The notes under the pieces were generated by a model. It was not told the DNA's origin. It did not search any database and saw nothing but the letters and a program-made list of their open reading frames with translations. Shown here piece by piece: positions 42,607 through 47,273 of a stretch of 64,000 bases of DNA. Source of the stretch: Treponema primitia ZAS-2 (GTDB lineage: Bacteria > Spirochaetota > Spirochaetia > Treponematales > Breznakiellaceae); assembly GCF_000214375.1 (NCBI RefSeq), contig NC_015578.1, forward strand, positions 620,001 to 684,000. The letters are read 5' to 3'. The position numbers and the translations under genes were made by a program. The first letter of the stretch is position 1. Every line of letters starts with the position of its first letter.

Positions 42607-42635
42607 TTGCCCTTTCGTCCCAACTATAGTAGAAT
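42607..42635 (+). promoter_or_regulatory. Promoter of the pyrimidine operon
   Basis: TTGCCC (42607-42612), 17-bp spacer, TAGAAT (42630-42635). The transcript would start near 42642, twelve bases before the leader ORF and about 185 bases before pyrB. Confidence 0.7.
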
Positions 42636-42653
42636 AGAGCAAGTAGGGGAATG

Positions 42654-42770
42654 ATGAACGTCAAGCTCATGAAAAGCCAGTTTTGCGCGGGGAACTGCGT
42701 TGCAAGTAGCGCCTGTTTTTACGGACCCCGCCGGGAATTCCTGGATGGCCCTATTTTTAGTATTCGTTGA
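42654..42770 (+). CDS. pyrL: Leader peptide of pyrBICKD (pyrL-like)
   Basis: 38 codons, ATG preceded by AGGGGA, too short for most gene finders. The frame reads [15 protein letters not shown]..., crosses a short palindromic repeat (42685-42712) and two T5 runs (42716-42720 and 42754-42758), and stops at TGA 42768-42770, two bases before the terminator stem. This is the layout of the E. coli pyrBI leader, in which low UTP stalls polymerase in the U-rich stretch so that the following ribosome blocks the terminator. The peptide itself need have no function. Confidence 0.65.
42685..42712. repeat. Dispersed palindromic repeat, short form, in the pyr leader
   Basis: GCGCGGGGAACTGCGTTGCA plus AGTAGCGC; ends GCGC/GCGC are inverted. 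It is followed by TGTTTTTAC, so its RNA hairpin could act as the pause signal of the attenuator. Confidence 0.75.
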
Positions 42771-42772
42771 AT

Positions 42773-42798
42773 AACCGCCTGTATGGCGGTTTTTTTTT
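42773..42798 (+). terminator. Attenuator (rho-independent terminator) upstream of pyrB
   Basis: AACCGCC-TGTAT-GGCGGTT followed by a T-run up to 42798, on the plus strand and 30 bp before pyrB. No plus-strand gene other than the leader ORF precedes it. Confidence 0.88.
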
Positions 42799-42827
42799 GC
42801 TTATTTACACTTTTGTGAGGAGGGGGA

Positions 42828-43751
42828 ATGTTAAAGGGACGACATCTGATTGAGCCGGGGGATTTTACCATTGAGGAGCTGGATGGGCTGTTTAGCCTGG
42901 CGGAGCGGATCGAGGCGGACCCGGCCTATCTAAGGGAGAGCTGCCGGGGCAAACTGCTGGCGACCCTGTTTTTTGAGCCCAGTACCCGGACCCGCTTGAG
43001 TTTCGAGGCGGCTATGCTACGCCTGGGGGGGAGCTGCCTGGGCTTTGCCGAGCCGGGATCCAGTTCTGCGGTCAAGGGGGAGAGCCTGGCGGATACCATA
43101 CGCACCGTGGCCTGCTATGCGGACGCCATCGTCATGCGGAACCCTAAGGAGGGGGCGGCCCTGGTGGCTTCCCGGTGCTCGGAGATACCGGTGGTCAATG
43201 CCGGCGACGGGGGGCACCATCACCCCACCCAGACTTTGACAGACCTGTTGACCATACGGCGGCTCCGGGGGGGCTTTAACGGGCTGACCGTGGGCTTCTG
43301 CGGGGACCTCAAGTTTGGCCGCACGGTCCATTCCCTGGCCATGGCCCTGGCGCGGTATGCGGGGATACGGATGATCTTCATCTCCCCGCCGGAACTTTCG
43401 GCGCCGGAATATATCACCCGGGGGGCCTTGGCAAAGGCCGGGGTGGAGTATCAGGAAACAGACCGGCTGGAAAAAGTGATGCCCAGCCTGGATGTGCTCT
43501 ACATGACCCGGGTCCAGCGGGAGCGCTTCTTTAACGAGGAAGACTATATTCGCCTCAAGGACAGTTATATTCTCACCGCAGAAAAGATGGAGGCCGCCAA
43601 AAAGGATATGATCATCCTCCACCCCCTGCCCAGGGTCAATGAGATTTCCCTGGAAGTGGACGCCGACCCCCGGGCCGCTTACTTTAAGCAGGCCAAGTAC
43701 GGCATGTACGTGCGCATGGCCCTGTTATCATCAGTATTAGGAGTTTTGTAA
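42828..43751 (+). CDS. pyrB: Aspartate carbamoyltransferase catalytic subunit
   Basis: 307 residues, full length. Carbamoyl-phosphate site [12 protein letters not shown] (about 46-57) and aspartate-side motif [24 protein letters not shown] near the end. It catalyses the first committed step of pyrimidine synthesis with the PyrI regulatory chain encoded next. GGAGGGGG precedes the ATG. Expression is probably set by the attenuator upstream. Confidence 0.97.
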
Positions 43752-43752
43752 T

Positions 43753-44187
43753 ATGCTTAACATTGCGAAAATAAAGAATGGTATCGTGATCGATCATATA
43801 AAAGCAGGCCAGGGCATCAGGATTTTTAACTGGCTGGGCCTGGGCAAGGCGCCTTATAATGTGGCCTTTGTGGTAAACGCCAGTTCCAAACACATGGAGT
43901 TGAAGGACATTATTAAAATCGATAACACCATTGCTATCAATTATGAATTGCTGGGGCTCATCGATCCGGATATTACCATTAATATTATTGAGAATGAGAT
44001 AATCACCGAAAAGATAAAGCTCCAGCTTCCCCAGCGGGTAGAAGATATCATCCTGTGCAAAAATCCCCGCTGCGTTACCTCCACGGAAACCTATGTGCCC
44101 CACATCTTCCACCTGGAGGACCCGGCCCTGGGAACCTACCGCTGTGAATACTGCGACGAGATACGCTCCGCCGGGGATTTCCGGTAA
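43753..44187 (+). CDS. pyrI: Aspartate carbamoyltransferase regulatory subunit
   Basis: 144 residues. Nucleotide-binding N-terminal domain ([21 protein letters not shown]) and C-terminal zinc domain with four cysteines, C-x4-C (CKNPRC) and C-x2-C (CEYCDE). It binds CTP/ATP and zinc and gives the enzyme allosteric control. It begins one base after the pyrB stop. A separate PyrI together with a pyrB attenuator is the enterobacterial type of design. Confidence 0.96.
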
Positions 44188-44229: not shown

Positions 44230-45525
44230 ATGATCCTAATTACCGGCGGCCGCCTGATCGATCCTAAATCCGGAACCGATGATTTTCTGGATATAGCCCT
44301 GGAGGGCGGCCGGATCGCCCGCATCGGCAAGGCACTTCCGCGAACTGACTGCCAAGTCATCGACGCCAGGGGTTTGATCGTGGTCCCCGGGCTGGTTGAT
44401 GTGCATGTCCATTTCCGCGATCCCGGTTTAACTTATAAAGAAGATATTCAATCCGGCGCGGCCGCTGCGGCTCATGGCGGTTTTACTGCCGTGGTCTGCA
44501 TGGCCAATACCAAGCCGCCGGTGGATAACGCCGAAACCCTGGGGGAAGTCCTGGCAAAGGCCGCAAGGGCTAAAATCCGGGTCTATACGGTGGCTGCGGT
44601 GAGCCGGGGCATGGAGGGCAGGGAATTGACCGATATGGGGGCCCTTAAAAAGCTCGGCGCCCTGGGGTTCAGCGATGACGGCTTTCCCATCAAAGACCCG
44701 GCGTTTCTGCAAAAAGCCCTGCTGGCGGTCCGGGAACTGGATGTCCCCATCAGCCTCCACGAAGAGGAAGGCGCCTTGATCGGCCTTCCCGGAATAAACG
44801 AAGGGAAGGTTTCTGCCGCCCTGGGCCTGAGCGGGGCTCCGGGGGTTTCGGAAAGCTCTATAATTGCCCGGGACTGTATGATTGCCCTGGCAACAGGCGC
44901 CCGGGTCCACATACAGCATGTCAGCGCCGCTGAATCCCTGGATCTGATTCGGCTGGCTAAAGAACTCGGCGCCCGGCGCTTTCCGGGAAGCCCCCCTCGG
45001 ATCAGCGCCGAACTGACCCCCCAGCATTTTTCCCTCACCGAGGATGCGGTCCTGGCCCAGGGGACCCTGGCCAAGCTGAACCCGCCCCTGCGTACCGAAC
45101 ATGACCGCCAAGCCCTTATTGGGGGCCTCAAAGATGGAACCATCGACATGATAGCCACTGACCACGCCCCCCACAGTACCGAGGAAAAGTCCCGGCCCTT
45201 TGCGGAGGCCCCCAGCGGGCTCATCGGTCTGGAAACCGCCCTGGCTCTGGGTATCACGAAACTGGTCCTTCCGGGGCATCTGAGCCTGCTGGAACTTATC
45301 GGGAAAATGACCGAGGCCCCGGCAAAGCTCTACGGGCTTGAGGCCGGGTTTCTGGCGGAAGGGGGGCCGGCGGATCTTACCCTCTTTGATGATAAGGAAA
45401 CTTGGACCGTTTCCGGGTTTGCCTCCAAGTCCTCAAACTCACCTTTTATTGGACAGCCTCTGACGGGGAAGGTTAAATATACTATCTGTAGAGGGAAACT
45501 TGTATATCAGGACGGGGAGGTCTAG
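44230..45525 (+). CDS. pyrC: Dihydroorotase
   Basis: 431 residues, class I dihydroorotase. Metal motif DVHVHFRDPG, further ligands in CMANTKPP, SLHEEEG and IQHVSA, and the catalytic Asp in TDHAPHS. It closes carbamoyl-aspartate to dihydroorotate. It follows pyrI by 42 bp and leads into pyrK with 3 bp between. Confidence 0.96.
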   Translation: MILITGGRLIDPKSGTDDFLDIALEGGRIARIGKALPRTDCQVIDARGLIVVPGLVDVHVHFRDPGLTYKEDIQSGAAAAAHGGFTAVVCMANTKPPVDNAETLGEVLAKAARAKIRVYTVAAVSRGMEGRELTDMGALKKLGALGFSDDGFPIKDPAFLQKALLAVRELDVPISLHEEEGALIGLPGINEGKVSAALGLSGAPGVSESSIIARDCMIALATGARVHIQHVSAAESLDLIRLAKELGARRFPGSPPRISAELTPQHFSLTEDAVLAQGTLAKLNPPLRTEHDRQALIGGLKDGTIDMIATDHAPHSTEEKSRPFAEAPSGLIGLETALALGITKLVLPGHLSLLELIGKMTEAPAKLYGLEAGFLAEGGPADLTLFDDKETWTVSGFASKSSNSPFIGQPLTGKVKYTICRGKLVYQDGEV

Positions 45526-45528
45526 GCT

Positions 45529-46371
45529 GTGGCACAGGTGATTTCTAACCGGGCTTTACCGGGCGGGTTTTACCTGCTTGAGGCGGATATATCCGGCGGT
45601 GCTGGTAGTAGTGATAATTTTAATCAAAAAGTAGTTGTACAAAATGACAACTATCTACAAAAAGTAGATGATCAATACGTCAACTTTTCCCATTCGGCAC
45701 CGGAGTTTCGGTCCGGGCAGTTCTGTATGCTCCGCGCTTGGGATACGGTGCCGGTGCTTTCCCGGCCTATCAGCGTGTTTGACGCCCAGGGGCCGAGGGT
45801 TTCCTTTTTGTATAAAACCCTGGGGCAGGGGACGGTTCTCTTTTCCCGGCTCAAGCCCGGAGACGCCCTCTCCATCCAGGGGCCCTTGGGGAGGGGGTTC
45901 CCTGAACTGTCCGGGCGTATCGCCATGGTGGGGGGCGGCGCGGGGATCGCCCCCTTCTACCTGGGGGCCAGGCAGTTTAGGGCTGCGGGCTGTACGGTGG
46001 ACCTTTATCTGGGCTTCAGCGGCGAACCCTTTCTGGCTGAGGAATACCGGGGCCTGGCAAACCGGGTTACCGTGAACGTCGGGGGCTTTATCACCGATGC
46101 GATTGACCCGGCGGAATACGACTTTGTTTTCACTTGTGGCCCGGAGATCATGATGAGGGTCCTCTATGATAAGTGCAAAAAAGCCGGGGTTGAGGACAGG
46201 CTTTCCGTGTCCCTGGAGAGCCGTATGGCCTGCGGGGTGGGAGCCTGTTTTGGGTGCAGCAGAAAAACTACCCGGGGGAACAAAAAGGTCTGCAAGGACG
46301 GGCCGGTGTTCCCCGCAGCGGATGTGTTCGCCACAGGGGATGTTCCTGCCCGGATAGGGGGCGAGATATGA
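45529..46371 (+). CDS. pyrK: Dihydroorotate dehydrogenase electron-transfer subunit, with an insertion
   Basis: 280 residues from a GTG. FAD site ([10 protein letters not shown]), NAD site ([12 protein letters not shown]), and a [2Fe-2S] cluster from CGVGACFGC and the later Cys in KKVCKDG. It passes electrons from PyrD to NAD. Between the first strand (residues 1-23) and SGQFCML there is an extra stretch of about 35 residues rich in N, Q, V and D, encoded by AT-rich DNA with small inverted repeats (45631-45667); normal PyrK proteins have a short loop here. The frame is intact. Confidence 0.93.
45610..45685. repeat. AT-rich palindromic insertion inside pyrK
   Basis: TAGTTGT (45632-45638) pairs with ACAACTA (45647-45653), then CTAC-AAAAA-GTAG (45655-45667); AAAAGTAG is also repeated directly. 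Base use is unlike the rest of pyrK. Confidence 0.55.
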
Positions 46372-47273
46372 AGCCTTCTTTAGAAACCGATTTTGCCGGG
46401 GTCTCCCTGAAAAACCCCCTGGTCCTGGCCTCGGGAACCTGCGGCTTCGGCAGGGAATTTGATGAAATTTTTGAGATAAGCCGCTTGGGGGGCATCTGCT
46501 CCAAGGGGCTCACTCTGAAGGCCAGGCCGGGCAATGAGGGCATACGGATCTGGGAGACCAGCGCGGGGGTCATGAACAGCGTGGGCCTGGAAAACCCCGG
46601 GGTCCCGGGCTTTATCGCAGAAGAGTACCCCCTGATGCGGCGCTTGGGGCCGGCAGTGATCGTGAACCTTGGGGGGCACAGCATTGATGATTACCTACAG
46701 GGGGTGGAACTCCTTAACGCCGTGGAATTTGATATCCTGGAACTGAATATCTCCTGCCCTAATGTTAAAGCTGGGGGTATGGCCTTTGGGGTTAAAACTG
46801 AAATTGCCCGGGATGTGGTGCGCCGGGTCCGCAGTATTTGTAAGCACAGACTTATGGTCAAGCTTTCCCCCAATGCAGAGGACATAGTTGCCCTGGCCCG
46901 GTGCTGCCAGGAGGAGGGGGCCGACGGGGTTTCCCTGGTGAACACCTTTCTTGCCATGGCTATTGATGTTCAAAAACGAAAGCCGGTCTTTGAGAATACC
47001 TATGCAGGGCTTTCCGGCCCGGCTATAAAGCCCATTGCCCTGCGCATGGTACACCAGGTTGCCAAGGTCCTCACTATTCCTGTGATGGGGGTCGGAGGCA
47101 TCACCACCTGGCAGGATGCGGCAGAATTTATCATGGCCGGGGCAAGGGCGGTACAGATAGGGACCGCTAGTTTTATTAACCCCGCCATATCCCTGGAGAT
47201 ACTGGAGGGCCTGGAATCCTGGATGGAGTCCCAGGGGATCGCGGATATTAATGAGATACGGGGTATTGTGTAG
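46368..47273 (+). CDS. pyrD: Dihydroorotate dehydrogenase, class 1B
   Basis: 301 residues. FMN barrel with [12 protein letters not shown], the motif [15 protein letters not shown], Lys in [20 protein letters not shown], and the FMN phosphate loops [14 protein letters not shown] and [13 protein letters not shown]. Pairing with PyrK marks it as the NAD-linked class 1B enzyme. The ATG at 46368 overlaps the pyrK stop by 4 bp (ATGA); the longer frame from 46254 is antecedent read-through. Confidence 0.96.

Follow-up and report, generated by a model that had tools for sequence, protein, structure and literature searches.

Upstream of pyrB in Treponema primitia ZAS-2 lies a short leader region with a promoter, a leader open reading frame (ORF) and an intrinsic terminator, and pyrB is followed by further genes of pyrimidine synthesis (Table 1). 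The locus was analysed within a 64,000-nucleotide stretch of genomic DNA, hereafter the window, and all positions are window coordinates. An earlier note had described a promoter, a ribosome-binding site, two T5 runs and a strong terminator followed by pyrB and pyrI, and each of these was read directly in the sequence. The 38-codon leader ORF that it had proposed was confirmed, with 38 or 39 codons depending on the start, and its stop codon lies 2 nt ahead of the terminator stem. From the promoter, the 5' end of the leader RNA is expected near 42641-42643. The gene upstream of the leader encodes a histidine kinase and, according to Pfam and the ORF list, lies on the opposite strand, divergent from pyrB.

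Table 1. Features of the pyrB leader and operon in window coordinates.
Feature	Position	Strand	Basis
Leader promoter: -35 TTGCCC (42607-42612), 17-nt spacer, -10 TAGAAT (42630-42635)	42607..42635	+	Consensus scan
Ribosome-binding site AGGGG	42645..42649	+	Sequence
Leader ORF: 39 codons from ATG 42651, or 38 from 42654; stop TGA 42768-42770	42651..42770	+	ORF list; ORF to the stem in 52 of 54 pyrB leaders
T5 run, candidate UTP-dependent pause site	42716..42720	+	Sequence
T5 run ending 14 nt upstream of the stem; foremost candidate for a UTP-dependent pause	42754..42758	+	Sequence; U-enrichment in relatives
Intrinsic terminator (putative attenuator): 7-bp stem, 5-nt loop, T9	42773..42798	+	Sequence, folding, comparison of 54 pyrB leaders
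pyrB, aspartate carbamoyltransferase catalytic chain	42828..43751	+	Pfam PF02729, PF00185
pyrI, aspartate carbamoyltransferase regulatory chain	43753..44187	+	Pfam PF01948, PF02748
pyrC, dihydroorotase	44230..45525	+	Pfam amidohydrolase PF01979 and operon position
pyrK, dihydroorotate dehydrogenase electron-transfer subunit	45529..46371	+	Pfam PF10418
pyrD, dihydroorotate dehydrogenase	46368..47273	+	Pfam PF01180

The terminator stem-loop, AACCGCC-TGTAT-GGCGGTT at 42773-42791, has a folding energy of -11.4 kcal/mol, and its T9 run (42790-42798) is separated from the pyrB ATG (42828) by just 29 bases. A consensus scan of these 29 bases revealed no promoter-like site, and pyrB would therefore depend on read-through of the hairpin. 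The window contains the stem pattern a single time, compared to 0 occurrences expected, and the 4.06-Mb genome contains it three times, namely in the pyrB leader, within an open reading frame (L272) and just downstream of an apparent gene end (L273). The hairpin is not the terminator of the histidine kinase gene, since that gene runs the opposite way.

A leader ORF at a single locus is weak evidence because roughly one in two shuffled leaders contains such an ORF too, and we therefore compared 54 pyrB leaders. The pyrB genes and their upstream DNA were taken from genomes of the window's family (Breznakiellaceae) and order, together with named genomes. A terminator was present within 170 nt in 76 of the 168 non-redundant upstream regions and was of the CGCC type in 64 of those 76. 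Hairpins that were unclear or resembled the ends of upstream genes were dropped, which left 54 leaders, nearly all from the window's family. Across the relatives, the outer pairs of the hairpin show compensatory A-T/G-C exchanges and the core shows C-G/T-A exchanges. A leader ORF was scored if it had an ATG start 30-150 nt before the stem and no stop earlier than 15 nt before the stem. Such ORFs, ending at the stem or passing through it, were found in 52 of the 54 leaders compared to 27.0 ± 3.4 in dinucleotide shuffles, and the highest count in 300 shuffles was 35 of 54. Their stops lie at the stem (25 leaders), inside it (4) or beyond it (23). The conservation in other treponemes that the earlier note had suggested looking for was thus seen as architecture, with the ORF and the terminator kept (52 of 54 leaders versus 27 when shuffled), and not as conserved sequence. 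The L003 leader, from the window's genus, does not fit fully, as the hairpin is present and the leader ORF is absent. In place of the leader, L003 has tandem copies of a GCATTGAGYCATTGCCRAGTG-like unit upstream of pyrB, and no ORF there reaches the stem.

Promoters were located relative to both start codons. In 39 of 52 leaders, compared to 6.3 expected by chance, a sigma-70-like promoter preceded the leader ATG at a distance of 4-30 nt, a count biased by the choice, among several candidate ATGs per leader, of the one with the best promoter. Behind the hairpin, a promoter before the pyrB ATG was found in 3 of 54 leaders, below the chance level of 6.5, and the contrary case raised in the earlier note, transcription starting after the terminator, accordingly found no promoter to rest on. 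The gap from the -10 box to the leader ATG was 6-9 nt in 26 of the 52 leaders, compared to 0.9 expected. With such a gap, the RNA probably begins at the ATG or within two or three bases of it, suggesting that half of the leader ORFs in the relatives are probably leaderless. Leaders of 10-13 codons are found among these relatives (for example L049, L057, L126, L134, L143 and L147). The window leader is not of the leaderless type, having a gap of 15 and a ribosome-binding site inside the expected 5' end of ~9 bases. In six Treponemataceae loci that have no attenuator (L157, L158, L159, L163, L170 and L177), a -10-like box ends 6 nt before the pyrB ATG. In such Treponemataceae pyrB itself may be leaderless, judging from 6 of 36 loci with this arrangement compared to 1.5 expected.

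The RNA before the stem is rich in U. Across the 54 leaders, T fractions of 0.51, 0.51 and 0.39 were measured in the three 10-nt bins nearest the stem, compared to 0.21-0.31 farther up, and the enrichment over the far leader region had p=8e-10. This far region was used as the control for U content, as the window offered just three control terminators, which are too few. The T-runs start in all three codon phases (23/21/16), and phenylalanine is not enriched in the leader frame, with an in-frame to out-of-frame ratio of 1.04. Substitutions at codon positions 1, 2 and 3 numbered 31, 25 and 39 in five homologous leader pairs, summed by hand, a bias that is not significant; this count was limited to truly homologous pairs, and comparisons of non-homologous leaders were not used. 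Several indels between homologous leaders preserve the reading frame. Since U-run phase, phenylalanine content and codon positions bear no mark of selection, these results suggest that selection acts on the U-rich RNA and the open frame rather than on the peptide. Some leaders (L143 and L147) lack a clear U-run and do not fit fully.

The pyrBI attenuator is a textbook switch that needs a ribosome keeping pace with RNA polymerase, and it is best known in E. coli and its relatives. In E. coli, the polymerase pauses when UTP is low and the coupled ribosome prevents hairpin formation, an established mechanism (PMC10135430, PMC5021804). The same analysis applied to E. coli MG1655 placed the pyrL hairpin 50 nt before pyrB and a U-rich bin 20-30 nt before the stem, with a pyrL ORF that starts 88 nt ahead of the stem and ends 3 nt short of pyrB. 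The window locus resembles pyrL-pyrBI in its promoter, its leader ORF (translated in E. coli), its U-rich tract before the stem, its G+C-rich hairpin with a T8-T9 tail and the pairing of pyrB with pyrI, and in having no antiterminator, regulator protein or regulatory codons (PMC10135430, PMC5021804). The order promoter-terminator-pyrB, the ORF leading to the stem, the U-rich tract and the lack of antiterminator and regulatory codons are the features by which we assign it to the pyrBI type. The resemblance is one of layout, as neither the leader peptide nor the hairpin has sequence kinship with its E. coli counterpart; three leader peptides had no Pfam match at E<=1, and the leader is not classed as a homologue of enterobacterial PyrL. 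Whereas the E. coli ORF crosses the hairpin, the window ORF stops 2 nt short of the stem, and both arrangements occur among the spirochaete relatives. The spirochaete 5' end before the leader ATG is also much shorter than in E. coli and often absent, some relatives have leaders of merely 10-13 codons, and the window operon, unlike pyrBI, goes on with pyrC, pyrK and pyrD. The match to pyrBI-type coupled attenuation made in the earlier note therefore holds for the layout, the ORF in 52 of 54 leaders, the U-tract and the promoters, but not for the leader sequence, which is unrelated to PyrL, or for the end of the ORF, which stops before the stem.

Other attenuator classes share single elements with these leaders. 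PyrR attenuators (Bacillus, Lactococcus, Clostridium; RF00515) also have a terminator in the pyr operon leader, but PyrR protein (0/150), PyrR RNA (0/60) and an antiterminator are lacking in the spirochaete family, and we do not place the locus in this class. The trp/his-type attenuators likewise have a short leader ORF ahead of a terminator. Assignment to this amino-acid class was rejected, as the spirochaete leaders lack a regulatory codon run and contain no antiterminator that could pair with the terminator arm.

Within the window's family the attenuator has a patchy distribution: in the well-covered set, 46 leaders have it and 47 lack it. About 21 changes are required to explain the trait's distribution on a pyrB tree (rows outside the clostridial family), so it was often gained or lost. 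A long same-strand ORF ends just before pyrB in 20 of the 47 family members without the attenuator, compared to 5 of the 46 with it, suggesting loss when pyrB joins another operon. Outside the window's family, the CGCC hairpin with an ORF was found at two loci (L152 and L211) from another family of the order. It was not seen by eye in the Treponemataceae inspected, where the promoter tends to sit directly before pyrB. Among 31 pyrB upstream regions from the clostridial family that includes Clostridium aminobutyricum, 22 have a terminator with a different sequence, mostly CTTCC..GGAAG. An ATG ORF reaches the stem in 17 of these 22, modestly above the 11.1 ± 2.3 expected by chance. Several further clostridial leaders have GTG or TTG ORFs, and U reaches 51% at the stem. 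No PyrR RNA was found at the gathering threshold in 18 clostridial loci, and the control L181 (Fervidicella) was recognised. Clostridial loci among L274-L304 (for example L276, L284, L286, L288 and L294) have the same layout before pyrB with a different hairpin, and the leaders of L276 and L286 have AYPSVxELICLLPLSG in common, ending exactly at the stem. Inspection by eye of 16 carA loci did not show the attenuator layout ahead of that gene. Upstream of carA in the window's genus (L308, L309, L311 and L313), an AT-rich stretch with a TTTTTCATTTTNNATTCCTAATTTTTC-like sequence looks conserved and is possibly an operator. In one family genome (G096, contig 42, 2971-3736), pyrB is apparently broken by several stop codons, and at L066 an FMN riboswitch (RF00050; 1315-1476) lies near pyrB, outside the pyrB leader. 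No earlier report of such an attenuator in spirochaetes or Clostridia was found in the open-access literature; an earlier prediction elsewhere is possible. Neither pyrB nor spirochaetes are mentioned in the main text of a survey of premature terminators from 2010 (PMC2965389).

The placement of promoters, the open frame to the stem, the U-enrichment and the terminator are all observed in the leader sequences, as is the absence of the alternative elements searched for, and a coupled transcription-translation architecture is strongly supported at this level. We consider that the window locus is probably a pyrBI-type, UTP-sensing coupled attenuator (probability roughly 0.7). The polymerase would start at the leader promoter, and a ribosome would immediately bind the very short 5' end and translate the leader ORF. 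When UTP is plentiful, the polymerase would run ahead through the U-rich stretch, the hairpin would form behind it and transcription would stop ahead of pyrB. Under UTP shortage, the polymerase would pause at the U-runs and the ribosome would catch up; at or near the stop codon it would cover the 5' arm of the hairpin, and the polymerase would continue into pyrBI-C-K-D. The leader peptide would be a by-product, and what would count is an open frame carrying the ribosome to or through the stem. Leader translation, polymerase pausing and blocking of the hairpin are what we infer from this layout, and UTP is the likely signal because of the U-tract, the gene served (pyrB) and the analogy with E. 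coli. Counting against the pyrBI-type reading, leaders of 10-13 codons leave little room for an E. coli-like race, the attenuator is patchy in the family, L143 and L147 have no clear U-run and L003 has no ORF.

Much of this layout would serve equally well if amino-acid supply or general translation speed, rather than UTP, governed the blocking of the hairpin, and such a signal would also suit the shortest leaders and the leaders lacking U-runs. We regard a non-UTP signal as unlikely, because U is strongly and locally enriched, the downstream gene is pyrB and the leaders show no amino-acid enrichment suggestive of regulatory codons, with runs of three nearly absent. Nor is there an alternative hairpin for a stalled ribosome to switch; a search for an antiterminator gave a complementarity to the terminator 5' arm of 4.87, compared to 5.23 by chance. 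The terminator before the pyr operon is also a hallmark of PyrR systems, and the window ORF by itself would lack significance, so attenuation by RNA alone or by a bound protein (PyrR-like, a riboswitch or an unknown binding protein) with a fortuitous ORF was considered. It appears very improbable, as the ORF is conserved well above chance and searches with working controls detected PyrR protein above the cut-off in none of 150 family genomes and PyrR RNA in none of 60. The leader also contained no Rfam family at gathering and permissive thresholds, PyrR RNA was likewise absent from the window, and the upstream folding was unremarkable (mean z -0.21), with no sign of a structured aptamer.

That the promoter, leader and terminator yield a small RNA or form a passive partial terminator, with pyrB unregulated by it, is improbable. 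The leader would give rise to a short transcript under any reading, and some relatives manage without the attenuator, but pyrB needs read-through with no promoter between the hairpin and pyrB (3 of 54 versus 6.5), and a passive terminator leaves the open frame and the U-tract unexplained. Chance, in the form of a random ORF combined with the terminator of a neighbouring gene, is hardly credible even though an ORF to the stem also occurs in about half of shuffled leaders; it is contradicted by the conservation over 54 leaders and by the ORF-to-stem and promoter-placement counts, the neighbouring gene is divergent and the hairpin is almost unique in the genome. More tentatively than for the UTP-sensing attenuator at the window locus, we propose that UTP-sensing coupled attenuation could have arisen repeatedly outside the enterobacteria, in Spirochaetota and in the clostridial family, with a spirochaete form that includes a minimal leaderless version. 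In this version the leader would begin at the first RNA base, maybe with 10-13 codons, and the initiating ribosome, not a fully trailing one, would decide whether transcription terminates or reads through.

The new points are the probably leaderless leader ORFs in half of the set and the same apparent layout, with another hairpin, in the clostridial family. If real, leaders of this leaderless kind would represent a novel, highly compact design. Runaway transcription has been described in Bacillus, and coupling in other phyla has been an open question since. A pyrBI-like layout in spirochaetes and in the clostridial family is sequence evidence for a regulatory use of coupling there, and these leaders could serve as a natural reporter for testing coupling in both groups. 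Together, these results suggest that pyrimidine synthesis in these bacteria is adjusted through a contest of speed between the ribosome and RNA polymerase, which could be how bacteria lacking PyrR control this pathway.
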